Shown here: piece after piece, positions 36,399 to 48,773 of the stretch
Numbering within the stretch: the stretch's first letter is position 1
How the letters are laid out: the number at the start of each line of letters is the position of its first letter
DNA from: a virus
Direction: 5' to 3' (one strand)
Length of the DNA: 49,508 nucleotides
IMG/VR virus record: IMGVR_UViG_3300021960_000116
Location: 1-49,508 of that record
Notes under the pieces: generated by a model
Told to the model about the DNA's origin: nothing
Database searches by the model: none
The model's input: the letters and a program-made list of their open reading frames with translations, nothing else
Made by a program: the position numbers and the translations under genes

Positions 36399-36438
36399 CT
36401 TTTCTTTCCTTTTCCCTAGCCCCTTGCTAGATACTTCT

Positions 36439-36513
36439 AGCTTACACTTCTCCAACAATAAGTCAAGAACTATCGGCAAAGAGAGTCGGCGTGTTGTAGG
36501 AAAAAATACATAA
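36439..36513 (-). promoter_or_regulatory. Early promoter a with 16-bp upstream element
   Basis: Perfect element at 36498-36513 (minus TTATGTATTTTTTCCT), -35 TTGACT, 16-bp spacer, -10 TAAGCT. Element-to-minus-10 distance is 54 bp. Drives 36183..36398 and 35902..36183. Confidence 0.8.
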
Positions 36514-36530
36514 CTAAGAAAGAGAGTCGG

Positions 36531-36562
36531 CAAAAGAAAACCCCCCACCTTTCGGTGAGGGG
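36531..36562 (-). terminator. Rho-independent terminator
   Basis: Minus strand CCCCTCACC-GAAA-GGTGGGGGG then TTTTCTTTT, right after the 36574 gene. Confidence 0.85.
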
Positions 36563-36573
36563 CTGTCCTTTCT

Positions 36574-36912
36574 TTACTTGAATAGAGAAACAATCACTCC
36601 ATAGATTGTCTTGTCTGGCTTGTAGCAAGCCTCGTAAGCCTCGGGAAACTTCTCGGCTAGTAGTGCCTCGTCAATCCCCTTGCGAGTTCTCCAGTCATAC
36701 CTTACAAACTCGATTCCATTGTGCTTGAGAGTTGTAGCCTTAGAAGTCTTTGTCTTCTTGTCTACACCGAACGCCTTTTCGATTTCCTCGGTAAGTGCAA
36801 CCTTACGCTTTTCCAGTCTTGCAATCTCTGCCCTAACCTCGGTGAGTTCTGCAACCTGTCCCAGAGTAACTTTGTTGCCCTTTTCGGTTGTCTGTGCTGT
36901 CTGAGTTGTCAT
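36574..36912 (-). CDS. Coiled-coil phage protein, unknown
   Basis: 112 aa. Coiled coil at about 17-48 (VAELTEVRAEIARLEKRKVA), then a small beta segment LKHNGIEFVRYDWRTRKGID and FPEAYEACYKPDK. This layout (coil, 'NG..v.R', '.FPE.YE') is frequent in small phage proteins near exonuclease or recombination genes, but I know no proven function. The gene at 47792 has the same layout. ATG behind GGGGAGAAGTTAGAA. Sole gene of promoter unit b. Confidence 0.65.
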   Translation of the reverse strand: MTTQTAQTTEKGNKVTLGQVAELTEVRAEIARLEKRKVALTEEIEKAFGVDKKTKTSKATTLKHNGIEFVRYDWRTRKGIDEALLAEKFPEAYEACYKPDKTIYGVIVSLFK

Positions 36913-36966
36913 TTCTAACTTCTCCCCTTATGTAGTTTCCAAGTATCATCTTTTGATGATGTAATC

Positions 36967-37043
36967 ATCATACCGGGGTAGGCAGACAAAAAGCAAACAC
37001 CTCGGCAAAAAAGTTTCTGCGTGTCGTAGGAAAAAATACATAA
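36967..37043 (-). promoter_or_regulatory. Early promoter b with 16-bp upstream element
   Basis: Element 37028-37043, -35 TTGCTT, 18-bp spacer, -10 TATGAT; distance 56 bp. Just downstream of the -10 are two overlapping palindromes, GATGAT-TAC-ATCATC and ATCATC-AAAA-GATGAT (36942-36969), which could be an operator. Confidence 0.8.
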
Positions 37044-37080
37044 TCAAAACCCAGAGTCCCTAAACTTTTTACGAACCAAA

Positions 37081-37111
37081 AAGAAAAACCCCCCGCATTT
37101 CTGCGAGGGGC
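37081..37111 (-). terminator. Rho-independent terminator
   Basis: Minus strand CCCCTCGCA-GAAA-TGCGGGGGG then TTTTTC, after the 37126 gene. Confidence 0.85.
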
Positions 37112-37125
37112 TTTCGGGTTGTTGT

Positions 37126-37692
37126 TTAGGCGTCTATCTCTACGCTCTCGAACTTGGCTAGGTAGTCATCTTCCGACATCTGGCGAATCTCCTCAAAGGT
37201 TAGTGTTACCTCGAACACCCACTCGCCCTGCTTGTCGTCATCTTCCCGCCAATGGCGTGACCAGTAGCTAGTGAAAGTATCGGCGTCTAGGTCAATCACA
37301 TAAGCACCCTCACACCAAAGAGCGTCATTCACAAACTCTAGGTCAAGTGCTAACGGCACTAGTCCCTTAGCGTTTGCAATCAGAGAAAGAATCTCCGCAC
37401 CTGTATCTCTTGAGAGTGATGGAAAATCATTGGACCACTTCTCGCCACTCTCCATAGTCATAAAGCCCTCCATTGTTCCATCTAGATACGGCTTTATCAT
37501 TTCTTGCAGAGTGTCCTCTGTCGGCACATAGGTATTAGCTAGGTTGTCCCTCAAGTTCTGAACATTGTCCTCACTCTTGAGAAAACGAAAAGCTGTCAAG
37601 CCCTGTCCCGAGGGGTATCCATCCCATTGACCATACTGCGAGACTCTAATCTCGTCTCCGTATCGAACCTGGGTAATGTGTCTAGTTCCCAT
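37126..37692 (-). CDS. Conserved phage protein (GTRHIT...QYGQWDGYPSGQG family)
   Basis: 188 aa. The N-terminus GTRHITQVRYGDEIRVSQYG and QWDGYPSGQGLTAF is a pattern I recognise from a family of uncharacterised proteins found in many phages. The rest is acidic with ALWCEGAYVIDLD and YWSRHWREDD. No catalytic site is evident. Its ATG lies inside the end of the 51-aa gene (11-bp overlap). Confidence 0.7.
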   Translation of the reverse strand: MGTRHITQVRYGDEIRVSQYGQWDGYPSGQGLTAFRFLKSEDNVQNLRDNLANTYVPTEDTLQEMIKPYLDGTMEGFMTMESGEKWSNDFPSLSRDTGAEILSLIANAKGLVPLALDLEFVNDALWCEGAYVIDLDADTFTSYWSRHWREDDDKQGEWVFEVTLTFEEIRQMSEDDYLAKFESVEIDA

Positions 37693-37837
37693 TATCTTTC
37701 CTTTCTAGGTGGGCAATTGCCCTCTCTTGTGACGCAATTGCTTCCCGCAATCGCTTCGCTTGATACTCGCTAAGAGTAGTAAGTAGTGCAACTCTGTTAG
37801 TTGCTAAATCTCTCTTGAGACTTTCTAGTCTGTTCAT
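37682..37837 (-). CDS. Small helical protein
   Basis: 51 aa (begins MNRLESLKRD). A single amphipathic helix (LSEYQAKRLREAIASQERAI). Good ribosome site GGGGAGGTTCAGAG. First gene of promoter unit c, overlapping the next. Unknown role; possibly a small regulator or host-takeover peptide. Confidence 0.65.
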   Translation of the reverse strand: MNRLESLKRDLATNRVALLTTLSEYQAKRLREAIASQERAIAHLERKDNGN

Positions 37838-37867
37838 CTCTGAACCTCCCCTGTGTTGAATAGTTCA

Positions 37868-37940
37868 ACTATACCAAAGAGAGACTTTTACGCAAGCAAG
37901 TTCAAGCGGCGTGTCTAAACGGCAAGGAAAAAATACATAA
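37868..37940 (-). promoter_or_regulatory. Early promoter c with 16-bp upstream element
   Basis: Element 37925-37940, -35 TTGCGT, 16-bp spacer, -10 TATAGT; distance 52 bp. A small palindrome GTTGAACTATTCAAC overlaps the start region. Confidence 0.8.
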
Positions 37941-37970
37941 TGCGGCCGCAGCCATACTTTTGACGAACAA

Positions 37971-38012
37971 AAAGAAAACCCCCACTAGGAAATAGGAGAA
38001 CCTAGTGGGGGC
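37971..38012 (-). terminator. Rho-independent terminator
   Basis: Minus strand CCCCCACTAGG...CCTAGTGGGGG then TTTTCTTTTTG, after the 38032 gene. Confidence 0.85.
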
Positions 38013-38014
38013 GT

Positions 38015-38030
38015 GTTAGGGGGGACTAAC
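38015..38030 (-). other. Poly-C-loop hairpin before terminator
   Basis: Minus strand GTTAG-TCCCCC-CTAAC, one base after the stop codon of the 38032 gene and before its terminator. The same element recurs at 39017-39032. Confidence 0.6.
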
Positions 38031-38031
38031 T

Positions 38032-38325
38032 CTACATAAAGTCTTCTTCGTCTGGCTCCTCATCTGCACACCAAGGGTCTAGGTGGTGCTGAATGATTAT
38101 GTCTCTGGCAGGAGCTGTTTCGCTTCCTCGAAAACTAATGCCTTCTGGCAAAGAAATCTCCTTGTCCAAGGCATCTTCCCAGTAAGCGTCAATAGCTTCC
38201 ATACAAACTTGCACCATACTTGTCGGCACTGGAGGATAGTGGTTTACCTGTAAGTGCCAAGTGAGTGCCTGTTCCATTGTTAGCTCTGGCGTGTTTGCCA
38301 TTTCTGTTGCTTGTAAGTTTCCCAT
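38032..38325 (-). CDS. Conserved small actinophage protein, unknown
   Basis: 97 aa. TMEQALTWHLQVNHYPPVPT, SMVQVCMEAIDAYWED, ISLPEGISFRGSETAPARD and IIQHHLDPW form a pattern seen in uncharacterised actinophage proteins. Acidic end (DEEPDEEDFM). Third gene of promoter unit d. Confidence 0.65.
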   Translation of the reverse strand: MGNLQATEMANTPELTMEQALTWHLQVNHYPPVPTSMVQVCMEAIDAYWEDALDKEISLPEGISFRGSETAPARDIIIQHHLDPWCADEEPDEEDFM

Positions 38326-38328
38326 TGG

Positions 38329-38634
38329 TTACTCCTCATCTTCTTCGTCATCTTCGAACTGTCCAATTAGTGTGTGCCAAACTGAATTACCATCGGCATC
38401 TGTTTCGATAGCGTCAACGAACCTCAGTGAACACGAATCCTCATACCAACCAAGAATTGTTTCTGTGAAATCAAACGGCATCTCCTTAGTGTGGATTACT
38501 GGATACTCATACTCTCTCATCAGTTCTGTTTGCTTCGAGTCCATCAGAATGTAAATCTTGTGGCACTCGTCCCAAGCAATACTGTCGGCACGCTCTGCCC
38601 ACTCTGAAATTACTAAAGTCTTGTCAATTACCAT
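38329..38634 (-). CDS. Small acidic protein, unknown
   Basis: 101 aa, beta/alpha mix (VIDKTLVISEWAERADSIAW, KIYILMDSKQTELM) with an acidic tail (FEDDEEDEE). Starts two bases after the upstream stop region in unit d. No family recognised. Confidence 0.6.
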   Translation of the reverse strand: MVIDKTLVISEWAERADSIAWDECHKIYILMDSKQTELMREYEYPVIHTKEMPFDFTETILGWYEDSCSLRFVDAIETDADGNSVWHTLIGQFEDDEEDEE

Positions 38635-38635
38635 C

Positions 38636-38839
38636 TCAGTCGACCTTTACCCAGTTCATAGTCACCCTAAGAAGGTGGTCGTAGTCGCCTGAAGTTGCTT
38701 CGGCGTAGTAGGCGTCTCTTTCTTCCTTCTCGACACCCGCTCTGCGTAGGGCCGAACTAACTCGTCCCAGAATCGCAAAGGCGTTTCCATCTTCACCAAC
38801 CAAAGGCACTTCGACCTCTGGATACTTTATGTTGTCCAT
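38636..38839 (-). CDS. Conserved small phage protein, unknown
   Basis: 67 aa: VPLVGEDGNAFAILGRVSSA, LRRAGVEKEERDAYYAEA, SGDYDHLLRVTMNWV. This compact pattern is frequent among uncharacterised phage proteins. First gene of promoter unit d, good site GGGAAGGAGTCCAA. Confidence 0.7.
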   Translation of the reverse strand: MDNIKYPEVEVPLVGEDGNAFAILGRVSSALRRAGVEKEERDAYYAEATSGDYDHLLRVTMNWVKVD

Positions 38840-38863
38840 TTGGACTCCTTCCCTTATACCTAA

Positions 38864-38938
38864 ACCCTACTACAAACCTCCGACAAAACAAATAACTTGA
38901 CGGCAGCGAGTCACGGCAGCGTAGGAAAAAATACATAA
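38864..38938 (-). promoter_or_regulatory. Early promoter d with 16-bp upstream element
   Basis: Element 38923-38938, -35 TTGTTT, 16-bp spacer, -10 TAGGGT; distance 54 bp. Drives three genes. Confidence 0.75.
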
Positions 38939-38963
38939 TCACTTCGGCGGGTCTTCCGAGTCG

Positions 38964-38997
38964 GAAAAAAGAAAACCCCCCGAAAGAATCGGGGGGC
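38964..38997 (-). terminator. Rho-independent terminator
   Basis: Minus strand CCCCCCGATTCTTTCGGGGGG then TTTTCTTTTTTCC, after the 39045 gene. Confidence 0.85.
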
Positions 38998-39016
38998 TTT
39001 CATCATCAAGGGGGGT

Positions 39017-39032
39017 GTTAGGGGGGACTAAC
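39017..39032 (-). other. Poly-C-loop hairpin before terminator
   Basis: Minus strand GTTAG-TCCCCC-CTAAC, followed by ACACCCCCC and then the terminator. Same 16 bases as at 38015-38030. Confidence 0.6.
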
Positions 39033-39044
39033 TCTATAACTCTA

Positions 39045-39245
39045 TCATACTGAAGCTTCTTTTGTCCAATTCAGTATTTCTAATCCTGCAACATTATCTT
39101 CCCACTCTGTTTCTTCCCACTTTTGAGTTTCAGTGTTCCAAGTTCCTTCGTTCTCGGCAAAGCGGGCTGTAAAAGTTTCATCATCAGGCCAGAAAGTCTT
39201 TGTGTCTAAATCAACCATAACTACATAACGAACTTGCTTACTCAT
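39045..39245 (-). CDS. Small acidic protein, paralogue of next-upstream gene
   Basis: 66 aa. QVRYVVMVDLDTKTFWPDDE and WNTETQKWEE align with QYHYIVMVEDSGEVSIDWDT and FDPDTEEWES of the 39238 gene, so these are tandem duplicates. Overlaps it by 8 bp. Unknown function; last gene of unit e. Confidence 0.65.
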   Translation of the reverse strand: MSKQVRYVVMVDLDTKTFWPDDETFTARFAENEGTWNTETQKWEETEWEDNVAGLEILNWTKEASV

Positions 39246-39495
39246 TAGTCATCATCTCCTCGAACTTCTCAATGTCGCTAGGCGATACAGAAATCTTTTG
39301 TTCACTAAGCAAAGCAGAAAGCTTCTCGGCAATCGCTTCATACTTAGCGTTCTTGAAAGCTGACTCCCACTCCTCAGTGTCGGGGTCAAAAATAGCTCCA
39401 TCGTGCTCTTCAAGCATTACCTGCGTAGTGTCCCAGTCAATGGAAACTTCTCCACTATCTTCGACCATCACAATGTAGTGATACTGCTTACGCAT
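39238..39495 (-). CDS. Small acidic protein, unknown (tandem paralogue)
   Basis: 85 aa. Beta strand (YHYIVMVEDSGEVSI), acidic loop and C-terminal helix (KNAKYEAIAEKLSALLSEQK). Overlaps both neighbours by 8 bp. Similar to the 39045 product over the first 45 residues. Confidence 0.65.
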   Translation of the reverse strand: MRKQYHYIVMVEDSGEVSIDWDTTQVMLEEHDGAIFDPDTEEWESAFKNAKYEAIAEKLSALLSEQKISVSPSDIEKFEEMMTNE

Positions 39496-39682
39496 CTCTT
39501 ACCTCCTCAATCTCGTAAACCTCAATGTCTGTGGTTCCTTCACTCTTTGTTGTGTAGGAAATGTCCTCGGCGGCGTTCATAATAATTTCATAAGCCCTAT
39601 TGGTTGCTTGCTCTTTATCTTCGGCATCAAGTTCAATCTTGTGCTCGATGCTCTCTGTAAGAATTACCTCAAAGCGTGTCAT
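39488..39682 (-). CDS. Small acidic protein, unknown
   Basis: 64 aa from ATG 39682, which overlaps the upstream stop (TAATG); longer readings have no ribosome site. TRFEVILTESIEHKIELDAE, DKEQATNRAYEIIMNAAED and TTDIEVYEIEEV suggest a single alpha/beta domain similar in outline to the next two genes. Confidence 0.65.
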   Translation of the reverse strand: MTRFEVILTESIEHKIELDAEDKEQATNRAYEIIMNAAEDISYTTKSEGTTDIEVYEIEEVRDA

Positions 39683-39834
39683 TACTTGAACACCTCCAAC
39701 TGCTTGTTGAACCACTTATCAAAATCGGCATCACACTCGTCACAAAGTGGGTGAACGGCGCTCGCTACAACAAGAATTCTAATTTCACACTTGTAGCAGG
39801 TCATCCACTCCCAGTTGGTAACTTGAACAGTCAT
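39682..39834 (-). CDS. Small zinc-ribbon-like protein
   Basis: 50 aa (begins MTVQVTNWEW). Two Cys pairs, MTCYKCEIRI and PLCDECDADF, likely bind one zinc. Start and stop overlap the neighbours (TAATG on both sides). Unknown role. Confidence 0.65.
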   Translation of the reverse strand: MTVQVTNWEWMTCYKCEIRILVVASAVHPLCDECDADFDKWFNKQLEVFK

Positions 39835-40079
39835 TACGCTTCAACTCCCTCGGCAAAGAACTCATCCATAATTGCGGAGTGCAATCTGTGTAGGTTCAGG
39901 TCTGCCCTGTTGCTGTTTCCACTCAGGTAGAGAAGTGCTAGGTTACGCAACTTGGCGTTTCTACGGCACTCTGCCCAGATAGTCGCCTTGGTTCCCTCGG
40001 AGAAGTAATCGTCTCTCCCTGCAAGCTTCATCACCATTGAGAAGATTAGCTCTGCTTCTTGGTCTGGTCTGTTTAGCAT
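39834..40079 (-). CDS. Small helical protein, unknown
   Basis: 81 aa, helical (ELIFSMVMKLAGRDDYFSEG, IWAECRRNAKLRNLALLYLS). Strong site CAAGGAGGGCAGAA. First of five overlapping genes in unit e. Confidence 0.65.
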   Translation of the reverse strand: MLNRPDQEAELIFSMVMKLAGRDDYFSEGTKATIWAECRRNAKLRNLALLYLSGNSNRADLNLHRLHSAIMDEFFAEGVEA

Positions 40080-40104
40080 TTCTGCCCTCCTTGTTGATAC
40101 CTAA

Positions 40105-40180
40105 ACAATACCCCAATACAAAGTTTGACGCAACTATCGGCACAAACCTCGGGGGGTGTGTCGCAGGAAAAAATACATAA
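40105..40180 (-). promoter_or_regulatory. Early promoter e with 16-bp upstream element
   Basis: Element 40165-40180, -35 TTGCGT, 17-bp spacer, -10 TATTGT; distance 55 bp. Start region reads GGTATCAACAAGGAGG. Confidence 0.82.
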
Positions 40181-40258
40181 TCCTTCGCAGCGTCGCGGCC
40201 GAAGGTGCAAAACTTTTTATGTGGGTGTTCGTGAAAAGTAGCGTTGTTCCTAGCGGCA

Positions 40259-40285
40259 AGAAAAAACCCCCGCCGAAGCGGGGGC
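40259..40285 (-). terminator. Rho-independent terminator
   Basis: Minus strand CCCCCGC-TTCG-GCGGGGG then TTTTTTC, after the 40299 gene. Confidence 0.85.
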
Positions 40286-40298
40286 AGTAGCAGAATCT

Positions 40299-40619
40299 TT
40301 ATCCAAGATAAAGTTCTGCAATCTCTGGAGAAAGTTCCTCCGCAACCCAGCGGCGGCCTTCTTCAGTCAGAGTAGTGTGCAACCAGTAGCCGCAGCAGGA
40401 GTATGGGTGGTCCGATTCCCCTAACGCATAAGTCGGCGTGTCCCCAGCGTGAGCATCAGAACCTTCAAGTTCCTCAGTAAAGGAATTGTAGGCTTGACCA
40501 CCACGCCATTCGAGTCCACGCTCCTCAGCGAACTTGACGGCACAGTCCTCACAAACAACATCAGTAAAGTCGCCATCACTAATGATGAATGTGTGGTGCA
40601 AGTAAGTCTGTGTGTCCAT
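40299..40619 (-). CDS. Small Cys-containing protein, unknown
   Basis: 106 aa from ATG 40619 (AAGGGGGTG six bases upstream; a GTG three codons earlier lies inside that site). VVCEDCAVKFAEERG and YSCCGYWLHTTL provide four cysteines likely to bind zinc. Sole gene of unit f. Confidence 0.65.
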   Translation of the reverse strand: MDTQTYLHHTFIISDGDFTDVVCEDCAVKFAEERGLEWRGGQAYNSFTEELEGSDAHAGDTPTYALGESDHPYSCCGYWLHTTLTEEGRRWVAEELSPEIAELYLG

Positions 40620-40657
40620 TGTTTTCACCCCCTTAGTGAATCCTTGATGATGTTCTC

Positions 40658-40731
40658 ATCATACTGGGCGGCAGCGACACTTTCAACGAACCACGCAGCG
40701 GCAGCTGGAGATTCAAGGAAAAAATACATAA
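40658..40731 (-). promoter_or_regulatory. Early promoter f with 16-bp upstream element
   Basis: Element 40716-40731, -35 TTGAAA, 17-bp spacer, -10 TATGAT; distance 53 bp. A palindrome ATGATG-AGAA-CATCAT overlaps the -10 and start site, as at promoter b. Confidence 0.8.
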
Positions 40732-40760
40732 CGCAGCGTCACACTGAAACTTTTCACGAA

Positions 40761-40790
40761 AAAGAAAACCCCCGCACACTGGCGGGGGCT
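40761..40790 (-). terminator. Rho-independent terminator
   Basis: Minus strand CCCCCGCCAGTGTGCGGGGG then TTTTCTTTTTC, after the 40806 gene. Confidence 0.85.
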
Positions 40791-40805
40791 TCTTTGGTTC
40801 TTTGG

Positions 40806-41177
40806 CTAGCGGCGTCGTCCAGCCATTCGAGACAATCGACGGGCTAGGGGCTTGTCGTTGTTCCAATACCAATCTAACAAGTTGTCCACTTCTCGACGGG
40901 TAAACAGGTTACGGAGAATCCGCCCCTGTAGTGTGCTAGTGGTCTGCGAGTAATAACCAATGTTGAAGAAGTAAACGGCATCCCCTTCGGGACGCTCTCC
41001 CTCAATTAGGTTGATGCGAGCAATCTCAGTATCCCAATGCGTGACTGTATAAGCAGAATGGGTCTTGGTAGCAATAATGCTTCTGTTGTAGTTCTCAAAA
41101 GGAACTAGCTCCCTAAAAAGTTGGTCAATCTGGTGGTTTGCAACCCGGGTGCGTGGTCTGGTGGTGGTAGTAGTCAT
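40806..41177 (-). CDS. Small basic protein, unknown
   Basis: 123 aa. Thr/Arg-rich start (MTTTTTRPRTRV), beta-rich middle (AYTVTHWDTEIARIN, DAVYFFNIGYYSQTTS), and a basic helical end (ARRLSRMAGRRR) that could bind nucleic acid. Good site GTTAGGAGATTCAAA. Sole gene of unit g. Confidence 0.6.
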   Translation of the reverse strand: MTTTTTRPRTRVANHQIDQLFRELVPFENYNRSIIATKTHSAYTVTHWDTEIARINLIEGERPEGDAVYFFNIGYYSQTTSTLQGRILRNLFTRREVDNLLDWYWNNDKPLARRLSRMAGRRR

Positions 41178-41206
41178 TTTGAATCTCCTAACTTGATGAT
41201 GCTTTC

Positions 41207-41269
41207 AAAATAACACAAACGAACGACATTTTAGGAATACGCAAGAAGACTCAAGGAAAAAATACATAA
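41207..41269 (-). promoter_or_regulatory. Early promoter g with 16-bp upstream element
   Basis: Element 41254-41269, -10 TATTTT (distance 42 bp); no clear -35. Start region GCATCATCAAG matches promoters b, f and h. Confidence 0.6.
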
Positions 41270-41283
41270 TTACTTAGGAAATG

Positions 41284-41314
41284 AAAAAGTGGGCTGTTTA
41301 TGCACACAAGCCCA
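41284..41314 (-). terminator. Probable terminator
   Basis: Minus strand GGGCT...AGCCC stem followed by ACTTTTTCATTT, after the ClgR-like gene. Confidence 0.6.
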
Positions 41315-41324
41315 AGTGTGTTTG

Positions 41325-41618
41325 TTAGCTGGTTGCTATCAAATCCTGATACTGGTTCGCCCAGTCGAGCTGTCGAGTATCCAACTCGTCTCCTGTTGCC
41401 ATTCGATAGCCCGTTTCGAGTATGAGGTCGTATGGCTCTATACCTAGTCCGTTTGCGATTCCGTCAATCACAGACGAAGACGCTTCTTTGACTCCCCGTT
41501 CGACTTCTGAGAGAAACGAGTAGCTTATGTGGGACAAGCTCGCCAACTCTCGTAATTGCAAGCCGTTTGCAAGCCGTCGCTCTCTGACTATCGAGCCTAG
41601 TGCGTATCTAAACTGCAT
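41325..41618 (-). CDS. ClgR-like XRE-family transcription regulator
   Basis: 97 aa. HTH of the XRE/Cro type: LGSIVRERRLANGLQLRELA, SLSHISYSFLSEVERGVKEA, SSSVIDGIANGLGIEPYDLI. The SEVERG.KEASS motif is typical of actinobacterial ClgR/PopR regulators, which activate clp protease and stress genes in hosts. The phage copy could redirect that regulon or act on phage promoters. Strong site GGAGGAGGAAACGG. It follows the DUF1281-like gene in unit h. Confidence 0.8.
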   Translation of the reverse strand: MQFRYALGSIVRERRLANGLQLRELASLSHISYSFLSEVERGVKEASSSVIDGIANGLGIEPYDLILETGYRMATGDELDTRQLDWANQYQDLIATS

Positions 41619-41669
41619 CCGTTTCCTCCTCCGTCTATGGTAATAAGCAAGCCGTCAAAAGTCAAGCCG

Positions 41670-42461
41670 TTAGACCTGCTCTTCGATAATAGGCGAGCCG
41701 TCTTCATCTACAAACTCCGTCACGCCGTAATCGCTGTGTGGCTCGGGGAATGGCTTTGCACCAGTCTCCATCTCAAAGACTTCCGTTCGAGCCTGCTCCA
41801 AATCACTAGCGGTAAGCTCATAAACTCTTGTCACTCGGGCAAAGATAGTCCTCTTGCCGGGGCAATCGTCATACCAAGACTCCTTATTGTCGTCCCAGTT
41901 GCAGTTGCAATCTTCTTCCTTATCACGCTCGACATAATCGGCGTGAGAGTCGGGAATGTCCCACTCCTTCTCAACTTCGAGACATCCATCCTCGCCGACA
42001 TACTCAACTGCCCAGCCCTGCTCTTCTTCGCTGTAAATCTTGAAAGTAAGCTCGGGGTGTTGTTCAGCCATTGCTCCAAAAACTCCCTCTGGTGGAGACC
42101 AAGCTGTTTGAAATCGAACTAGCACTGACTCGGCAGTAGTGTCTATGTCTTCCACTTCAGGGTCACAAGCATCCCACTTAGTTCCCCATTCTCGAATGTT
42201 GAAGTTATACCAGTTGTTCGGCGTATCTCCACTTTCCTTACCGCCCGACCATCCGTGAGTTGCGTGATACTCGCCAGAGTCAAGCGATTCTTGTGGTGGA
42301 GCTACAAAGTTTGAAAATGAAAATCTTGGCTTTAGGTCGTCCTGCTCTTCCTTTGGATAGGACTCCCTCAATGGTGAGATAGCAGTTGCCTTTTCAATAA
42401 AAGATTCCAAGTCGGCAACCTTGCCAGAAATTGTCAAGCTGTTAGATACCCAATTTGGCAT
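41670..42461 (-). CDS. DUF1281 / YubB ferredoxin-like domain protein
   Basis: 263 aa. MPNWVSNSLTISGKVADLES at the start, NNWYNFNIREWGTKWDACD and VRFQTAWSPPEGVFGAM in the middle are the pattern of the DUF1281 (Api92-like/YubB) family found on plasmids and phages. An inserted Cys/Asp-rich region (EEDCNCNWDDNKESWYDDC) near 180-200 is unusual and could bind metal. Function of the family is unknown. First gene of unit h. Confidence 0.8.
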   Translation of the reverse strand: MPNWVSNSLTISGKVADLESFIEKATAISPLRESYPKEEQDDLKPRFSFSNFVAPPQESLDSGEYHATHGWSGGKESGDTPNNWYNFNIREWGTKWDACDPEVEDIDTTAESVLVRFQTAWSPPEGVFGAMAEQHPELTFKIYSEEEQGWAVEYVGEDGCLEVEKEWDIPDSHADYVERDKEEDCNCNWDDNKESWYDDCPGKRTIFARVTRVYELTASDLEQARTEVFEMETGAKPFPEPHSDYGVTEFVDEDGSPIIEEQV

Positions 42462-42489
42462 TTAGACCTCCTCTATTTGTGATGCTTTT

Positions 42490-42553
42490 ATCTTAGTGGA
42501 AACCTGCTACATTTTTGCAACGGCACACGAAAACTATAGGAAAAAATACATAA
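42490..42553 (-). promoter_or_regulatory. Early promoter h with 16-bp upstream element
   Basis: Element 42538-42553 directly abutting the stop codon of the previous gene; -35 TTGCAA, 19-bp spacer, -10 TAAGAT; distance 43 bp, about one helical turn less than promoters a-f. Confidence 0.75.
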
Positions 42554-42853: not shown

Positions 42854-42883
42854 AGGACCTAGGATACCTGCTAATTTTACCCC

Positions 42884-43156: not shown

Positions 43157-43168
43157 AACCCCTAACTC

Positions 43169-43369
43169 CTAATCCTCGATAATTTCGTAATCAAACATTT
43201 CGTCCAACAACTCTGGGTTGTTGGTGATGCTCCAACGATTGAACTCACGAGCTTCCCTGATAATCTGCAACTGCCTCTCTGCCTTTGTTCCTACGGCGAG
43301 ATAGTTACTGATAGTCACGATGTCCTCCTGAGACCTCGGCGTCACCTTTATCTTCACTTCGTTCCTCAT
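43169..43369 (-). CDS. Small protein upstream of HicA-like gene, unknown
   Basis: 66 aa, beta start (EVKIKVTPRSQEDIVTIS) and helix (TKAERQLQIIREAREFNRW), acidic end. It does not look like HicB. Good site AGAGGGAGAG. First gene of unit i. Confidence 0.6.
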   Translation of the reverse strand: MRNEVKIKVTPRSQEDIVTISNYLAVGTKAERQLQIIREAREFNRWSITNNPELLDEMFDYEIIED

Positions 43370-43411
43370 CTCTCCCTCTTTCGACTTTCACTCTATCAAG
43401 TCTTCGTAAAT

Positions 43412-43453
43412 TGTATAAGCATTGCTACTTCGTGTCAAGGAAAAAATACATAA
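43412..43453 (-). promoter_or_regulatory. Early promoter i with 16-bp element abutting -35
   Basis: Element 43438-43453 runs straight into -35 TTGACA; -10 TATACA (distance 21 bp) or TACAAT (23 bp). Shortest spacing of the set. Confidence 0.7.
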
Positions 43454-43463
43454 TCCTTGACCC

Positions 43464-43512
43464 ATAAAAAAGACTGCCCAATCTTGCGTCTCGGCACAAG
43501 TTTATTGGGCAG
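43464..43512 (-). terminator. Rho-independent terminator
   Basis: Minus strand CTGCCCAAT...ATTGGGCAG then TCTTTTTTATGG, directly after the 43519 gene. Confidence 0.8.
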
Positions 43513-43518
43513 TAAGTT

Positions 43519-43743
43519 TTAGTCCTCTGGGTCGGCGAACATTGGGTCTTCGTAAAGACTCTCGATTATTTCGTCCTTGCAGTTCGGGCACTCGGCATAC
43601 CAAGTCTCTCTGCTGTCGTCAGTCGAGCCATCTACCTCGCCCTCCCAGCGGCAGTTGGCACAAATTACTTCGAGTGTCTTCTCGATTGAGTTGATACCTG
43701 ACCCACTCATTGAGCCACCATCTCCATAGATTCCTAGATTCAT
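43519..43743 (-). CDS. Small zinc-ribbon protein
   Basis: 74 aa. VICANCRWEGEVDG and YAECPNCKDEI give a CxxC-CxxC zinc ribbon; acidic ends. Strong site AAGGAGGGACAAG. Sole gene of unit j. Possibly binds nucleic acid or RNA polymerase; unknown. Confidence 0.7.
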   Translation of the reverse strand: MNLGIYGDGGSMSGSGINSIEKTLEVICANCRWEGEVDGSTDDSRETWYAECPNCKDEIIESLYEDPMFADPED

Positions 43744-43770
43744 CTTGTCCCTCCTTTGTGAGATACCAAA

Positions 43771-43834
43771 AGGTTACAGGTTGCCAGTGACATTTTGCAA
43801 AACTTTTTATGAGTGTTGAGGAAAAAATACATAA
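43771..43834 (-). promoter_or_regulatory. Early promoter j with 16-bp upstream element
   Basis: Element 43819-43834, -35 TTGCAA, 18-bp spacer, -10 TAACCT; distance 43 bp. Confidence 0.7.
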
Positions 43835-43873
43835 TCACCTGGGGTGCACCTGGGTCCTGGAACTTTTTACGAA

Positions 43874-43914
43874 CAAAAGGCGAAAGCCCCCTGAGCTTTG
43901 CTCGAAGGGGGCTC
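43874..43914 (-). terminator. Rho-independent terminator
   Basis: Minus strand AGCCCCCTTCGAGC...GCTCAGGGGGCT then TTCGCCTTTTG, after the VWA gene. Confidence 0.8.
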
Positions 43915-43918
43915 TCTA

Positions 43919-43964
43919 TCACAACGGACTGGTAAGGGGGGGAAGGGGGGGTAGTCCGTTGTGA
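43919..43964 (-). other. 12-bp perfect hairpin with poly-C loop
   Basis: TCACAACGGACT pairs perfectly with AGTCCGTTGTGA; the 22-nt loop on the minus strand contains two C7 runs separated by TT. It begins 5 bases after the VWA stop and precedes the terminator. The plus strand carries two G7 runs. Confidence 0.75.
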
Positions 43965-43969
43965 GTTCT

Positions 43970-45808
43970 CTAGGTCTGACTACCTGCTCTCGCTAGGGCT
44001 TCCGTTGCAGTCTTCCCAATCGCTTCTGCAATCCGTTCGACTGAAAGCTCCAAGTGAACTCCCCAAGCCGTCTTCTGTATGGCGTCCCTCGCCATACCTG
44101 ACCAACACATCTCAGGAGTGACGAACACAACAGCCACGCCGTTCTGCCTGCACTCGACAAGTGCGTTCCGTAGATTCTCGGTCTCCCTCGGGGTGAACTG
44201 TCCGTCTGACACAATCACCAACATACGCACTCCGTCACCATAAGTAAGTCCAAGCTCGCCGTCTAGGGATTCCCACGCCTGACCAAACTTCTCGGTTCCG
44301 TCTGGTGCTGAGTAGATAGTCACTTGGTCTAGCCTCTCGCCAACTCGAAGCGTTGGGAAAACTCCCGACCCGAAATAAACCATAGCGGTCTTCGCCTGAA
44401 CTCGGCGACCTGCCTCTGAGAGAACCCAAGCCGTAGTCGCCATAGCTTCCATAGCTGGGCTCATTGAGCCACTAATGTCCACCATAATTCCAACCCTTAG
44501 CGTTGGGTCGTCTGTGTGCTTGCGTGACTTGGACTTCCAAGTCGGCAACTCTCCCCGCAAGCCTCGGGCTTCCATAGCCTTGTTCTGGATAGCGTTGCGA
44601 GTAATCAGTCGTCCCTGCGGAACTTGAGTCTTGCGAGTGTGGACTGACCTCTCACGATACTTTGCCTTTTCGAGTGACTTGGCAATCGAAACTGCGGAAG
44701 CTCGCTCTGCCCCTGTCGGGCTTCGGCGTTCCTTGATTCGTGAACCAGAACCAGAACCTCGCTCGTCGTGGCTCTTGTCGAAAATCTGCTTAGCAGTAGT
44801 CTTTCGCTCATTCTGATTCTTGACCTGCTTGGCTCGCTCGCTGGCTTCCTCTGACCACTGCCTCTTAGTCTGCTGTGCTTCTGCCTCGGCGTTGCTGTCC
44901 ATTTCAGTCTCAGTTGCTGACTCTTCCAACATCTCTCGAAGCGAGCCACCACTACTGCTCTTGCTCTTGCTCTCGCTGTCCTCGGACTCTTCGCTTGGCT
45001 CGCCAATTCCGAACTGAGGCTCGCCCTCTGGCTCGCCCTCGGGGTCTGCCTCTCGAAGCAACTCCACCCACTTCTCGGCAAGCTCGATACCCTTGTCCAA
45101 CTCTCTCGGGGCAACTATGGTTTGGAACTCCTGCCAAACTGCTCGAAGCTCGGCGAGTAGGTCTGCACCTAGAACATCTAGGGTCTTCTGGTGAATGTCC
45201 CTAACATCTGAGGCTTCCAAAATCCCTGCATCTAGTCGAGCTAGGGATAGCAAGCTGAGTGAGGCAACCTGCCAAACATCTCCCATTGAGTTTAGGTAGT
45301 CTTCGTTCAGGTCTTCGAGTGCAAGCTCTAGTCCCGAAGCCCTGAGGAAAACCTTGTTGTCGGGAATGAGCCTTGCTCCTAGTGCCTCGATACGAGATTC
45401 TTCTAGTCCCATAAACGCCTGAGCTACTGCCTGAGTCTTTACTCGCTCCTGCAAGTCGTCCAAGTTCCAGCTCGTGTATCGAGCGTGTAGTGCTTCGTGA
45501 TAGATAGCACCTGTGGCTTTCGGGAACTCGTAGTGAGTGTTGCTGTCCTCGTAAGAACCAACTTGGTCTGGCTGGGTAAACTCCCCGAATAGCTTGGAAA
45601 CATTTAGCTCAATCTCTGCTATGTCGGCGTAATAAGCGGCTGAGGCTTGACCCTCTGCTGTGTCGTGACCACCATAAACAACTAGGTCGTTGCGACCTGA
45701 CCAAGTGTTTACGCAAGTCCCTATGGACGAGCAAGCTCGATACCACTCGGGGGCTGTTGCCCCTGTTCTAGTTGCAAGTCTTGACTTGCTAATCGTGTAA
45801 TGTGCCAT
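43970..45808 (-). CDS. VWA-domain protein (CobT-like), partner of AAA+ ATPase
   Basis: 612 aa. The N-terminal third has a helical domain with IYHEALHARYTSWNLDDLQE (HEALH, a possible HExxH-like metal site) and EESRIEALGARLIPD. The middle is a long acidic Ser/Glu-rich linker (GEPSEESEDSESKSKSSSGG). The C-terminus is a von Willebrand A domain with MIDAS motif VGIMVDISGSMSP (Asp about 444), and later SDGQFTPRETE. This resembles CobT-type subunits that work with MoxR/CobS AAA+ ATPases as chelatase-like or remodelling complexes. It is transcribed just after the ATPase gene, from promoter k. The target is unknown; such pairs occur in several phages. Confidence 0.82.
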   Translation of the reverse strand: MAHYTISKSRLATRTGATAPEWYRACSSIGTCVNTWSGRNDLVVYGGHDTAEGQASAAYYADIAEIELNVSKLFGEFTQPDQVGSYEDSNTHYEFPKATGAIYHEALHARYTSWNLDDLQERVKTQAVAQAFMGLEESRIEALGARLIPDNKVFLRASGLELALEDLNEDYLNSMGDVWQVASLSLLSLARLDAGILEASDVRDIHQKTLDVLGADLLAELRAVWQEFQTIVAPRELDKGIELAEKWVELLREADPEGEPEGEPQFGIGEPSEESEDSESKSKSSSGGSLREMLEESATETEMDSNAEAEAQQTKRQWSEEASERAKQVKNQNERKTTAKQIFDKSHDERGSGSGSRIKERRSPTGAERASAVSIAKSLEKAKYRERSVHTRKTQVPQGRLITRNAIQNKAMEARGLRGELPTWKSKSRKHTDDPTLRVGIMVDISGSMSPAMEAMATTAWVLSEAGRRVQAKTAMVYFGSGVFPTLRVGERLDQVTIYSAPDGTEKFGQAWESLDGELGLTYGDGVRMLVIVSDGQFTPRETENLRNALVECRQNGVAVVFVTPEMCWSGMARDAIQKTAWGVHLELSVERIAEAIGKTATEALARAGSQT

Positions 45809-45841
45809 TTCCCTTACCTCTTCCCTATGGCTTATACATAA

Positions 45842-45893
45842 ATAATACAGGTGTTGGGGGATAAGTCAAGAACTTTTTTCGAAAAATACATAA
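45842..45893 (-). promoter_or_regulatory. Early promoter k with degenerate upstream element
   Basis: Element 45878-45893 (minus TTATGTATTTTTCGAA), -35 TTGACT, 16-bp spacer, -10 TATTAT; distance 31 bp. The -35 lies in one arm of a 14-bp inverted repeat. Confidence 0.7.
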
Positions 45894-45907
45894 TTGACTT
45901 ATCCCCC
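45856..45907. repeat. 14-bp perfect inverted repeat around promoter k element
   Basis: GGGGGATAAGTCAA (45856-45869) and TTGACTTATCCCCC (45894-45907) flank 24 bases holding most of the upstream element. As RNA it would form a stable hairpin at the end of the ATPase message; as DNA it duplicates the -35 box in opposite orientation. Confidence 0.85.
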
Positions 45908-45931
45908 GCATTTAGTCGGGGACGAGTCCGA

Positions 45932-46948
45932 CTAAATCTTCGCTGGTAACATCTGCTCTCCGAAGACACGACCAAACACATCTGAGGCGACTGGTCTGTC
46001 GAGTTCGGGTGCGGAAGCCAACAAGTTCTGAATAGCGAACTTGCTTCCAAACTTCTTAGTCAAGTCTCGGAAAGCTAGTAGCTCTCTCATCTGAGGCGAC
46101 CAAGAAACTTCGCCTGACTCCTGCTTCTTGGATAGATTCTGGGAAGCCACGACTGCTGAGTTTGGAACTCCAAGCTTCTTAGCCAATGCCCAGTCAGTAG
46201 TCATTTCTGCCTGCACTGAGAAACGAGAGAGTAGTGCCTCTGAGAGTCGAACTCCCGGTGCGTTGGGGTTGGTTGCTCCCACAACATAAAAACCCTCTTC
46301 TGCCTTTACAGTCCCACGCTCGGGGTTGGCTGTCACGACGAGTTCCTTTCTTCCGTCCATTAGTCCATAGACGACTGAGAGAACCTTAGGGTCAATCAAA
46401 CCAATCTCGTCAATTAGGAGAACCTTGCCCTCGGAAGCGGCTCGGGTCAAACTTCCGTCCACCCACTCGAAACCGCCACTCGGGGTCTGAACATAGCCAC
46501 CCACTAGGTCGGCAACCTCTGTATCGCCAGAACCAAGAATGGTGTAAAGCTCGTCGGGGAATGAAGCCTCGACCATAGCTGTCTTACCAGTTCCCGGAAC
46601 TCCATACAGTAGAACTGGCTGTCCTAGCTCTCGGCACTGGCGTAGCACCTCGACATCTGTAAAGTCGCCCCACTTGCGAGCGAAGTAGTCTTCGCCATTT
46701 GGTCGCTTGTATGATTCCTCGCCCTGCAACTCTGTGACCTCGATTTCTGGCTTGTCCAGAATTGAGCTTACCTTAGGTGCTGAACCCTTAGTTCCGGGCT
46801 TGGCTCTGAGGGTTGCTCGACCCTCGGGAGTGAGGAAACTATCTAAGCTAGTAGTGCTTCCCTTTGGGTCTAGCACTTCGTAAAGTGCTTCGAGCGTGTT
46901 CTCTGGTAGTGATACATCTGATTCTGCAAAAATCTTCTCTATAAACAT
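45932..46948 (-). CDS. MoxR/CobS-type AAA+ ATPase
   Basis: 338 aa from ATG 46948 (AAAGGACGAGAA upstream; the longer reading has no site). Walker A VLLYGVPGTGKTAMVEAS (about 110-125), GDTEVADLVGGYVQTPSGGF (MoxR-type insertion), Walker B KVLLIDEIGLIDP (about 172-185), sensor 1 region YVVGATNPNAPG and the arginine-finger region SEALLSRFSVQAEM. An N-terminal ~100-residue extension precedes the AAA core. Such ATPases pair with VWA proteins, here the next gene, to remodel or insert metal into target proteins. Stem ATTTAGTCGG/CCGACTAAAT spans its stop codon. Confidence 0.9.
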   Translation of the reverse strand: MFIEKIFAESDVSLPENTLEALYEVLDPKGSTTSLDSFLTPEGRATLRAKPGTKGSAPKVSSILDKPEIEVTELQGEESYKRPNGEDYFARKWGDFTDVEVLRQCRELGQPVLLYGVPGTGKTAMVEASFPDELYTILGSGDTEVADLVGGYVQTPSGGFEWVDGSLTRAASEGKVLLIDEIGLIDPKVLSVVYGLMDGRKELVVTANPERGTVKAEEGFYVVGATNPNAPGVRLSEALLSRFSVQAEMTTDWALAKKLGVPNSAVVASQNLSKKQESGEVSWSPQMRELLAFRDLTKKFGSKFAIQNLLASAPELDRPVASDVFGRVFGEQMLPAKI

Positions 46949-46976
46949 TTCTCGTCCTTTCCTGTTTATACCTGAA

Positions 46977-47606
46977 TTATGCCAGCTTTTCTGGGAAATT
47001 GTCAAGCGAATTACGAACCTTGTTGATTCGGCGAATAACTGCTTGTGGGGTCTTGCTCTCACGAACAATCTGTAGGTCGTCTGTAGTGACCTCTACAACT
47101 ATTGTCTTGTTCTCACGAACAATCCAACCCTGCATAGCAACCTGCTTAGTCTCGCCCTTTTCCTCGACATAATCAGTCGAGAGTATGAGCTTCTTTATGG
47201 TGTAGTCCAAGTGTCGCTTAGTTGCCCTGAGCAAGTCTTCCTTTGCCATTAGGTCTTGATTACCCTTTTTTATCTGCTGATAATCAAGGTAAGTCTCTCG
47301 ATAGTAGCTCGGGGTATCGTCGTCATTAGTCTCGACTACTGGGGTGATTCTGCTAGTAATGTCCCACTGAGCCCTGGGGCTAATCTCGGAAACAACTCGG
47401 GACATACCAACTGCCCTGTGAGTCTTCCCAGAGTCGTCTTCCCAAGCGGGAAAAATAATGACCTGCTTGGTCGGGTTATACCTGTGTTCAGTAGATACTC
47501 GATAACGCTTGTCTTCGTCTAGCTCTGGGTCAATGACCAGCTCTAGGTAAACAGCCTTGCCAGCCAGCTTTGGGGGCAAAACTTCTTTAGGTGCTACAAC
47601 ACTCAT
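46977..47606 (-). CDS. Protein preceding the AAA+/VWA pair, unknown
   Basis: 209 aa from ATG 47606 (AAAGGACGAGAATT, almost the same ribosome site as the ATPase gene). Alpha/beta with VYLELVIDPELDEDKRYRVS, QVIIFPAWEDDSGKTHRAVG, a helical KEDLLRATKRHLDYTIKKLI and QGWIVRENKTIVVEVTTDDL. No recognised family. Co-transcribed with the ATPase (29-bp gap), so it may be a substrate or adaptor of the complex. Confidence 0.6.
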   Translation of the reverse strand: MSVVAPKEVLPPKLAGKAVYLELVIDPELDEDKRYRVSTEHRYNPTKQVIIFPAWEDDSGKTHRAVGMSRVVSEISPRAQWDITSRITPVVETNDDDTPSYYRETYLDYQQIKKGNQDLMAKEDLLRATKRHLDYTIKKLILSTDYVEEKGETKQVAMQGWIVRENKTIVVEVTTDDLQIVRESKTPQAVIRRINKVRNSLDNFPEKLA

Positions 47607-47645
47607 AATTCTCGTCCTTTCGTTGTGCTGTTTTGTTGTATCTAA

Positions 47646-47720
47646 ATCAAACCACACTTGGAGACGACACGCAAGTTTTTGTTTCGGCGTGTCTAATACC
47701 TCGTAGGAAAAAATACATAA
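47646..47720 (-). promoter_or_regulatory. Early promoter l with 16-bp upstream element
   Basis: Element 47705-47720, -35 TTGCGT, 17-bp spacer, -10 TTTGAT; distance 54 bp. Drives the 46977 and ATPase genes. Confidence 0.78.
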
Positions 47721-47730
47721 TTTTTAGTTT

Positions 47731-47785
47731 TAGAAAAAAGAGGGGAAGTTGAGGGAGAGGGCTCCTCGTCCGAACCCTCCCCCTA
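47731..47785 (-). terminator. Possible terminator
   Basis: Minus strand AGGGGGAGGGTT...AGCCCTCTCCCT, then a CT-rich stretch and TTTTTTC about 13 bases later; weaker than the others. Confidence 0.45.
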
Positions 47786-47791
47786 ACGCCC

Positions 47792-48136
47792 CTACTTGGT
47801 GTCCAGCTCGACTCGCTTGGACGGGAGTGCCAGCTCCTCGAAGACATCTGGACGGAACTCCAGAAGCCTTGCCTTAGAGACTGACATAGAGGTCTCGACT
47901 GAGACCTTGCCCACAACCTTGTTGTTGTGAACGAGGACAGCTGATTCCTCGGAACCAGCTTCGGCAAGGATGAGCTTACGAAGCTCGCCTGCCTGCTTGT
48001 TGAGCTCATTGAGCTCCTTGCGCACCCTAGCTAGGGCTTCGAGGTTCTGCTTCGCCTCTCGGGAAACCTTGACGGCTCCCTTAGGCAAGGACTGACCTCG
48101 GGTGACCCGAGGGTGTGGAGTCTTGAGATTACTCAA
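47792..48136 (-). CDS. Coiled-coil phage protein, unknown
   Basis: 114 aa from TTG 48136, six bases after AGGAGG; the ATG two codons earlier touches that site directly and is less likely. Coiled coil KQNLEALARVRKELNELNKQ, then VHNNKVVGKVSVETSMSVSK and EFRPDVFEELALPS. Same layout (coil, small beta segment, 'F.P..FE') as the 36574 product; possibly distant paralogues. Sole gene of unit m. Confidence 0.6.
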   Translation of the reverse strand: MSNLKTPHPRVTRGQSLPKGAVKVSREAKQNLEALARVRKELNELNKQAGELRKLILAEAGSEESAVLVHNNKVVGKVSVETSMSVSKARLLEFRPDVFEELALPSKRVELDTK

Positions 48137-48189
48137 GGGCATCCTCCTTGGTTGGTTCCCTTACTTCTTGTTCGGGGAAGTTACCTATA

Positions 48190-48264
48190 AGGTAACGGCA
48201 CCCACAGACATTTTGCAAGCGATTTATGTAACAGGTTTATAACGAAAAAGGAAAAAATACATAA
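48190..48264 (-). promoter_or_regulatory. Early promoter m with 16-bp upstream element
   Basis: Element 48249-48264, -35 TTGCAA, 17-bp spacer, -10 TTACCT; distance 54 bp. A small palindrome GTTACCTTATAGGTAAC covers the -10 and start region. Confidence 0.75.
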
Positions 48265-48274
48265 TTGACTTGGA

Positions 48275-48304
48275 CAAAAAAATACCCCCTCTTTCGAGGG
48301 GGCT
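48275..48304 (-). terminator. Rho-independent terminator
   Basis: Minus strand CCCCCTC-GAAA-GAGGGGG then TATTTTTTTG, after the 48318 gene. Confidence 0.88.
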
Positions 48305-48317
48305 GGGTTGAGAAGGA

Positions 48318-48500
48318 CTAGTCCTCCTCAGACACTCCATCATCACGCACTAGCATTTCTAGTGGCTCAGGTAGTGGCGAGTTGTTGGCAACGAATTCCT
48401 CAATCTCTGAAATCAGAGCTTGAGCGAGTTCGAAAGCTTCGTTCTCGTCCTTGGCTTCGACAGTAGTCCAAGCCTCGAAGTCAATAGTGAACCTCTTCAA
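48318..48500 (-). CDS. Small acidic protein, unknown
   Basis: 60 aa from TTG 48500, with AAGGAGG about nine bases upstream. KRFTIDFEAWTTVEAKDENE and AFELAQALISEIEEFVANNS suggest a beta strand plus helix, similar in outline to small proteins of unit e. Second gene of unit n. Confidence 0.6.
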   Translation of the reverse strand: MKRFTIDFEAWTTVEAKDENEAFELAQALISEIEEFVANNSPLPEPLEMLVRDDGVSEED

Positions 48501-48518
48501 TGGGCATCCCCTCCTTCC

Positions 48519-48686
48519 CTAACTAGACATCCCGCAGAGAGTCTGCCACTCTCCGCAGTTTAGGCACTCTTGTGCGTAGCACTCTGGGTCTCCGCACTCG
48601 TCGTGCTCGTGCCAATACTCAGTGGCGCCCCATTCGGCGTTGCACTGTTCAGTGTGCTCGAGCTTTGACTCATCTAACTTTGCCAT
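48519..48686 (-). CDS. Small Cys/His-rich protein
   Basis: 55 aa (begins MAKLDESKLE). EYWHEHDECGDPECYAQECL and NCGEWQTLCG: five or more Cys and two His, likely zinc binding, very acidic. Good site CCAAGGAGGGTAA. First gene of unit n. Confidence 0.65.
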   Translation of the reverse strand: MAKLDESKLEHTEQCNAEWGATEYWHEHDECGDPECYAQECLNCGEWQTLCGMSS

Positions 48687-48710
48687 TTACCCTCCTTGGC
48701 TGTTGTTTAG

Positions 48711-48773
48711 ATGGTAGCACATAGTGCAGACAGCACAAGTAGGAGTCGGGGCGCTATAGGAAAAAATACATAA
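48711..48773 (-). promoter_or_regulatory. Early promoter n with 16-bp upstream element
   Basis: Element 48758-48773 abuts the stop codon of the HTH gene; -35 TTGTGC, 16-bp spacer, -10 TACCAT; distance 42 bp. Confidence 0.65.

Follow-up and report, generated by a model that had tools for sequence, protein, structure and literature searches.

The window analysed here, the whole stretch of 49,508 nucleotides that constitutes positions 1 to 49,508 of the IMG/VR virus record IMGVR_UViG_3300021960_000116, represents part of a phage, the relatives of which are as large as 125-154 kb. Its source is a large uncultivated phage, probably with a host among the Actinobacteria. The window contains a module of small genes that is syntenic in relatives and in DSL-LC01, and within this module a 16-bp element, TTATGTATTTTTTCCT, is found in 13 exact copies, all on the same strand (shuffle expectation 0.47 at ≤3 mismatches). 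The opposite strand of the window contains no copy, and the element is confined to positions 36498-48773, with no copies in the rest of the window. A 14th copy, TTATGTATTTTTCGAA, is degenerate and carries T5 instead of T6 due to the deletion of one T. Each copy is preceded by the terminator or stop codon that closes the previous unit, and is followed by a predicted promoter. These counts agree with the original prediction of 13 perfect copies and one degenerate copy in a single orientation, and the placement that it described, after the previous unit and before a sigma70-like promoter, was seen at all 14 copies, the promoters being predicted. The features are as follows.

36183..48686, minus strand: small-gene module downstream of the element promoters (ORF and family calls)
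36498..36513, minus strand: copy a of the 16-bp element (TTATGTATTTTTTCCT), exact; predicted -10 at 36439-36444
37028..37043, minus strand: copy b, exact; predicted -10 at 36967-36972
37925..37940, minus strand: copy c, exact; predicted -10 at 37868-37873
38923..38938, minus strand: copy d, exact; predicted -10 at 38864-38869
40165..40180, minus strand: copy e, exact; predicted -10 at 40105-40110
40716..40731, minus strand: copy f, exact; predicted -10 at 40658-40663
41254..41269, minus strand: copy g, exact; ambiguous -10 at 41207-41212 (original reading) or 41228-41233 (promoter model, posterior 0.81)
42538..42553, minus strand: copy h, exact; predicted -10 at 42490-42495
43438..43453, minus strand: copy i, exact; predicted -10 at 43410-43415
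43819..43834, minus strand: copy j, exact; predicted -10 at 43771-43776
45932-46947 and 43970-45808, minus strand: AAA-ATPase/VWA pair inside the small-gene module (ORF and family calls)
45878..45893, minus strand: copy k, degenerate (TTATGTATTTTTCGAA), read from the sequence; predicted -10 at 45842-45847
47705..47720, minus strand: copy l, exact; predicted -10 at 47646-47651
48249..48264, minus strand: copy m, exact; predicted -10 at 48190-48195
48758..48773, minus strand: copy n, exact; predicted -10 at 48711-48716
48774..49217, minus strand: gene of P0001, a candidate binder of 147 aa with two tandem MerR/Xis/BldC-type winged HTH domains (Pfam HTH_17/MerR)

The promoters of the window are sigmaA-like and were predicted with an EM promoter model whose position prior was uniform and which includes a -35 sequence TTGnnn. 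We infer from gene content and position that they are early promoters. The distances from the element to the -10 sequence are 54, 56, 52, 54, 55, 53, (21 or 42), 43, 23, 43, 31, 54, 54 and 42 bp for copies a to n, which reproduces the distances counted earlier at 13 of the 14 promoters. The exception is copy g, where the model favours a -10 sequence at 21 bp; the initial choice at 42 bp is kept as plausible because it is supported by an extended -10 (TGTGTTATTTT) and by the AAAATGTC spacer motif of relatives. Copy i adjoins the -35 sequence of its promoter (TTGACA-17-TACAAT) and occupies a class II-like position. In the window alone, the distances are concentrated in phase at 10.5 bp (R 0.80, n 14), and the step, originally given as about 11 bp, is corrected to this value.

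Relatives were collected via the terminase or an endolysin-like gene, and the exact TTATGTATTTTTTCCT tag is absent from the relatives found by either route. In the motif search in relatives that had been proposed with the original prediction, none of 50 terminase relatives contained more than one match to the window's own element at ≤2 mismatches; where the region is present, many of them bear other alleles. Exact matches to the 16-mer across IMG/VR were present on 47 contigs in a single copy each and were regarded as chance. Many relatives contain an array of 12-25 tag copies in one orientation within a homologous module of 13-17 kb, and these tags are related to TTATGTATTTTTTCCT but phage-specific (GTATTTATTTTTTCTG, ATAGTTATTTTTTCTG, GTATCCACTTTTTTAC and others). 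The lineage-specific sites have the general form kTAnnnA-T6-(C/G/A)(T/A), of which only the first five T are invariant across phages; the bases flanking the T-run, including G and C, are fixed within one phage and differ between phages. Orthologous promoters retain the tag, while its spelling is altered in concert over all copies of a phage, and alleles vary even among phages with 80-90% identical terminases. Between orthologous promoters, the element distances differ mostly by 0-4, 9-13 or 20-24 bp.

The helical stepping, which was doubtful at n=14, was replicated in 183 further predicted promoters from 19 other phages, whose tags are mostly different. For the combined set of 197 predicted promoters from 20 phages, the distances between tag and -10 sequence are quantised at 10.5 bp with R 0.476, as compared to a largest value of 0.257 among 3,000 nulls. 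In the same 20-phage comparison, control distances from the tag to the start codon or to the upstream stop codon showed no periodicity, so that the one-face arrangement expected of a class I/II activator-type site is seen at predicted promoters but not in these controls. A separate set of 73 predicted promoters gave R 0.487 with the period fixed beforehand, and 72 promoters outside the main distance class of their phage were still in phase (V-test p 4e-7). The tag centres lie at about -41, -51, -62, -72, -82 and -93, with -72 as the main class; the positions originally named (-41, -50, -62 and -73) were recovered and the series was extended to -82 and -93.

These data are best explained by assuming that a phage-encoded activator binds to the element and contacts RNA polymerase from a single helix face, which we consider probable. 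The observations behind this proposal are single-orientation, phage-specific repeats in one module, their concerted change, and the 10.5-bp quantisation at class I/II registers. A phage-encoded, sequence-specific protein would bind the asymmetric element in a single orientation and would activate the downstream promoter by touching RNA polymerase, most likely via the flexible alphaCTD, and the module could then represent an early or middle regulon that is switched on together. The original prediction had allowed for either a phage activator or the RNA polymerase alphaCTD on the T-tract; phasing across phages supports binding on one face, but the alphaCTD reading the T-tract alone is insufficient, because the bases around the T-run, G and C included, are constant in each phage but not from one phage to another.

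CRP acts from -41.5 in class II promoters and from -61.5 or more distant upstream positions in class I (PMC2859248), and the tag is found near these positions and at further upstream turns. Like CRP-type promoters, the array promoters combine an upstream one-face site with a predicted sigma70/sigmaA-type promoter (PMC2859248). In contrast to them, the putative activator site is asymmetric and in a single orientation, precedes 12-25 promoters per module, varies in sequence between phages and also uses -51. A position near -51 is unusual for sigma70/CRP, as CRP acts weakly on sigma70 promoters from there (PMC2859248). Some predicted promoters place the element near -51, which is a counterpoint to the activator proposal. 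A phage precedent is protein p4 of phi29, which reads CTTTTT/A-tract sites and activates the late promoter A3 via RNA polymerase contact (PMC3100819), a contact with the alpha subunit being cited in the same review. Both cases would share a phage activator, T/A-tracts upstream of a promoter and the proposed polymerase contact, but p4 recognises inverted repeats (CTTTTT-15-AAAATG) within a single intergenic region (PMC3100819), whereas here a single asymmetric site precedes many promoters. The MotA box of T4 is likewise a phage element repeated at many host-polymerase promoters; MotA acts as a monomer and its box replaces the -35 sequence at a fixed -30 (PMC2988021). In the array phages, a -35 sequence is part of the promoter model and the element shifts by whole helical turns of 10.5 bp. 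Short repeats also precede 5-19 genes in actinophages, namely SAS/ESAS in Cluster K and the repeats of Microbacterium EC/EF/EG/EI phages, and the ESAS consensus varies between phages (PMC3203893, PMC7302621). SAS and EF motifs coincide with the ribosome-binding site, while EC and EG repeats begin to be found closer to the gene, with 14-30 bp separating them from the start codon; the passages covered do not mention helical phasing for SAS/ESAS or EC/EF/EG/EI repeats (PMC3203893, PMC7302621). Different from these, the element is mostly situated 40-75 bp upstream of a predicted -10 sequence and lacks a start-codon register.

Such sites could also serve a phage repressor or a protein of the host. 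In Cluster A mycobacteriophages, stoperators are many asymmetric, oriented intergenic sites, which vary in sequence among related phages and are mostly not associated with promoters (PMC9283540, PMC6550527). An immunity repressor that blocks initiation and read-through in this manner would account for many asymmetric sites with one orientation to transcription, for their short intergenic spaces and for a specificity that differs among related phages, and P0001 shares the presence of two DNA-binding domains with the Cluster A repressor. Nevertheless, a repressor function appears unlikely: all 14 window copies and the scored copies of relatives precede a predicted promoter, with which they keep helical register, and a roadblock to upstream transcription provides no reason for this 10.5-bp register with the downstream promoter. 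Moreover, the elements sit upstream of the -35 sequence, neither over nor downstream of the start, and no integrase was seen among the scanned proteins of the window, which is only a phage fragment.

Even less likely is an effect without a dedicated protein, in which the T-run is either bound by the host alphaCTD or causes a DNA bend that is phased with the promoter. UP elements consist of A/T only and are located at about -40 to -60. Both alphaCTD binding and bending are expected to depend on the helix face, the first five T are the sole invariant part across phages, and A-rich stretches are present near the promoters at -43..-37 and -55..-50. The latter stretch is, however, not element-specific, because it is also found in promoters of array-less phages, and the A-rich stretches were rejected as an array-specific alphaCTD signature. 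In addition, about ten more bases, including G and C, are nearly invariant within a phage and different between phages (TTATGTA..CCT; GTATCCAC), GTATCCACTTTTTTAC violates the A/T rule, and the main class is at -72. The least probable reading is that a host nucleoid-associated protein or global activator reads the element and that the alleles mirror different hosts. In its favour, hosts may differ between phages, and neither profiling nor the 63-family screen revealed a cognate phage protein, but the allele spread among phages with 80-90% identical terminases suits a phage factor better.

For the proposed phage activator, P0001 is a candidate. Its structure model (pLDDT 79) contains two HTH units and partially matches the folds of Pukovnik Xis (4j2n) and BldC (6ama), albeit with weak Foldseek E-values, and homologues occupy a syntenic position at the array head in G020, G021 and G022. 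According to profile searches, the double-HTH family is present in eight array phages, and G010, G012 and G068, in which no array was observed, carry a version cut down to a single HTH. The same searches found no double-HTH protein in the array phage G030 (129.6 kb) or in G056 and G057, which are part records. G063 possesses the protein, and no array was seen in the stretch of it that was analysed. G020 and G021 share the same element, yet their double-HTH recognition helices are dissimilar. P0001 was thus rejected as a universal cognate, since several array phages lack its family and the family does not track the element type; as binder of the window's element, the evidence points both ways and is suggestive, not decisive. 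The conserved sigma-region-4-like protein (32488-33120) was rejected as reader of the variable bases because both of its HTHs hardly change from one element type to another. Presence/absence profiling across phages did not reveal a convincing cognate, nor did a 63-family covariation screen against element distance, in which no protein convincingly followed the element type; the top matches of both were structural or doubtful ORFs.

The array tags of about 20 related phages point to a phage-specific activator protein, and predict that large aquatic phages encode a regulator whose specificity changes rapidly. More tentatively, this protein may belong to an undescribed, fast-diversifying activator family with an asymmetric 7-mer-plus-T6 site, 12-25 promoters, six helical registers and lineage-specific sites, in which regulon specificity would differ in a similar way as the immunity types of temperate phages. 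Elsewhere, dependence on the face of the helix has been established on individual promoters and on engineered ones. Here, approximately 200 naturally varied predicted promoters present one kind of site at helical intervals between -41 and -93, and this dependence can be read from comparative sequence alone.

A GACA...TGTC dyad over the promoters was also considered and discarded, as its co-occurrence was not significant (p 0.28). Two of the copies directly touch a coding region: for copy h, the immediately adjoining stop codon belongs to the gene at 42554-42853, and for copy n to the double-HTH gene.

The 16-bp element TTATGTATTTTTTCCT is far more frequent in the window than expected by chance (0.47 copies), and all 13 exact copies have the same orientation, as originally predicted.

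36498-48773: 13 exact copies of TTATGTATTTTTTCCT, read in gene direction
45878-45893: shortened TTATGTATTTTTTCCT, the predicted degenerate 14th copy
48214-48245 (approximate): CGTTAYnAAnnTGTTAYnAAA, a tandem repeat (period 11 bp) that separates element and promoter
48774-49217, minus strand: P0001, a 147-aa double-HTH protein

A stop codon or terminator lies before every copy and a predicted promoter after it, which also agrees with the prediction. The flanking regions do not align to each other, which argues that the copies are maintained by selection rather than by recent duplication. The tandem repeat is also found upstream of an AAA-ATPase operon in the relatives G020, G022 and G029, and in the array-less G041; it is possibly the site of a second regulator.

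All element promoters are predicted by a scoring model, which was fitted by EM with a flat position prior to 130 sites from nine phages, dereplicated at 70% identity over 80 bp with some relatedness persisting. The model converged on TTG(C/A)nn, a mainly 17-bp spacer and an extended -10 sequence TGgTAnnnT. It reproduces the originally proposed distances between element and -10 box for 13 of the 14 window promoters; at the remaining one, copy g, either of two -10 boxes is plausible. TGTC (often AAAATGTC) starts at about -28, within the -35/-10 spacer, in 53 of 197 element promoters.

The proposed stepping of these distances by one helical turn is borne out. The best period was 10.5 bp in a first set of 128 promoters with a posterior of at least 0.5 (phase concentration R 0.473), and scoring 11 additional records with the model unchanged gave a second set, 73 promoters, with R 0.487 at this period; the pooled 197 promoters from 20 phages reached 0.476 versus a null maximum of 0.257. 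Replacing the EM model by a plain regular expression yielded R 0.44 (158 sites). The spacing of the element from the start codon (R 0.13) or from the upstream stop codon (R 0.12) shows no period. Because a single narrow preferred distance would likewise yield a high R, a further test was restricted to promoters lying more than 5.25 bp away from the main distance class of their own phage; most of these 72 are offset by about 10 or 20 bp in either direction (V 0.41, p 4e-7). Differences of 0-4, 9-13 or 20-24 bp between orthologous promoter pairs, which are non-independent, are commoner than in-between values. The element centres lie near -41, -51, -62, -72, -82 and -93, with -72 as the main class; they include the activator-like positions suggested before and match class II and class I activator registers (PMC2859248), the -51 class being atypical.

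As an array, TTATGTATTTTTTCCT was found neither by exact search of IMG/VR nor in 50 terminase relatives. The homologous region of many relatives contains arrays of a related site, the spelling of which differs by phage.

Array sites in relative phages (G) and stretches of relatives (L); the list is partial and further spellings exist
GTATTTATTTTTTGTC: G020, G021
ATAGTTATTTTTTCTG: G022, G023, L190
GTATCCACTTTTTTAC: G029, G030, G038, L196
GTATTTATTTTTTCTG: G050, L209, L226
GTATTCATTTTTTATC: G046
TTTTTCATTTTTAC: G049

No such array was seen in G010, G012, G035, G041, G042 and G045. In G020, G021, G030 and G050 (130-154 kb), the array is limited to 13-17 kb with nearly all copies on the same strand; a few copies with the opposite orientation lie inside the array or close it off (G020 67566 and 72551, G021 122239; minus strand). 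Alignment on the T-run revealed a common TA near the start, an A (or C) preceding the run and five invariant T, while the remaining bases are constant inside one phage and variable among phages. The first genes of the window's units have orthologs elsewhere, with an element at most 230 bp upstream in 43 of 66 cases. Since these orthologous promoters keep the element in the other phage's spelling, the sequences indicate that all copies in a phage, orthologous promoters included, changed together. Such concerted change is characteristic of a trans-acting factor. In a sister clade (L158, which is DSL-LC01 24794-43304, and L217-L225), phage-specific repeats are fused with the -10 box, their position being constant; DSL-LC01 contains about 16 copies of TTCTAAAGATGTTATAAT, and other members have AAGTTGTTATAAT, CCTGATATAAT and TCCAGAGTTTATATAAT. 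This arrangement is unlike the element arrays, yet there is likewise one spelling per phage.

Nearly all large ORFs of this 49.5-kb record are on the minus strand, and contigs holding terminase relatives reach up to 154 kb. The nearest named records are DSL-LC01, a lake phage assembled from a metagenome (PMC10611076), and Microbacterium phages of 186-195 kb (terminase identity 74% versus 61-65%); all other relatives are metagenomic as well. Based on these terminase matches, the host is probably an actinobacterium. Two further genes were noted.

30070-32325, minus strand: 751-aa protein with a catalase-peroxidase-like haem peroxidase domain (PF00141, E 3.6e-66), encoded between lysis region and terminase
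32488-33120, minus strand: protein with two HTHs, one sigma-region-4-like and the other C-terminal, highly conserved in array and array-less relatives alike

Most economically, a phage protein would bind the asymmetric element and make contact with the host polymerase at its alphaCTD; we infer the labels 'activator', 'phage-encoded' and 'early' for this system. Among phage activators, phi29 p4 sets a precedent, as it recognises T/A-tracts and makes contact with RNA polymerase (PMC3100819). An UP element or a bend alone would leave the fixed G/C bases of the site unexplained, and a stoperator-type role predicts no register between the site and the downstream promoter. A ribosome-binding role of the SAS type is excluded by the element position. 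No description of this element was found in the open-access papers searched.

The best local candidate for the phage protein binding the element, albeit a doubtful one, is P0001, whose gene ends exactly where the first element starts. Its structure model contains two winged HTH units, Xis- and BldC-like with weak fold-search E-values, which would suit an asymmetric site in the manner of the two-domain Cluster A repressor (PMC9283540). Three array phages carry syntenic homologs and others more distantly related ones, and where no array was seen, in L166 1480-1701 (G010), L165 (G012) and G068, the homolog is reduced to the first HTH (73-77 aa). Against P0001, its family is missing from several array phages, and G020 and G021 have dissimilar recognition helices despite sharing the same element. 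Neither profiling nor covariation screens brought out a convincing candidate. A gene for a TipAS ligand-binding domain adjoins a separate MerR-like double-HTH gene (window 49198-49506, minus strand; L163 1077-1436), as if the two halves of the TipA regulator were encoded separately.
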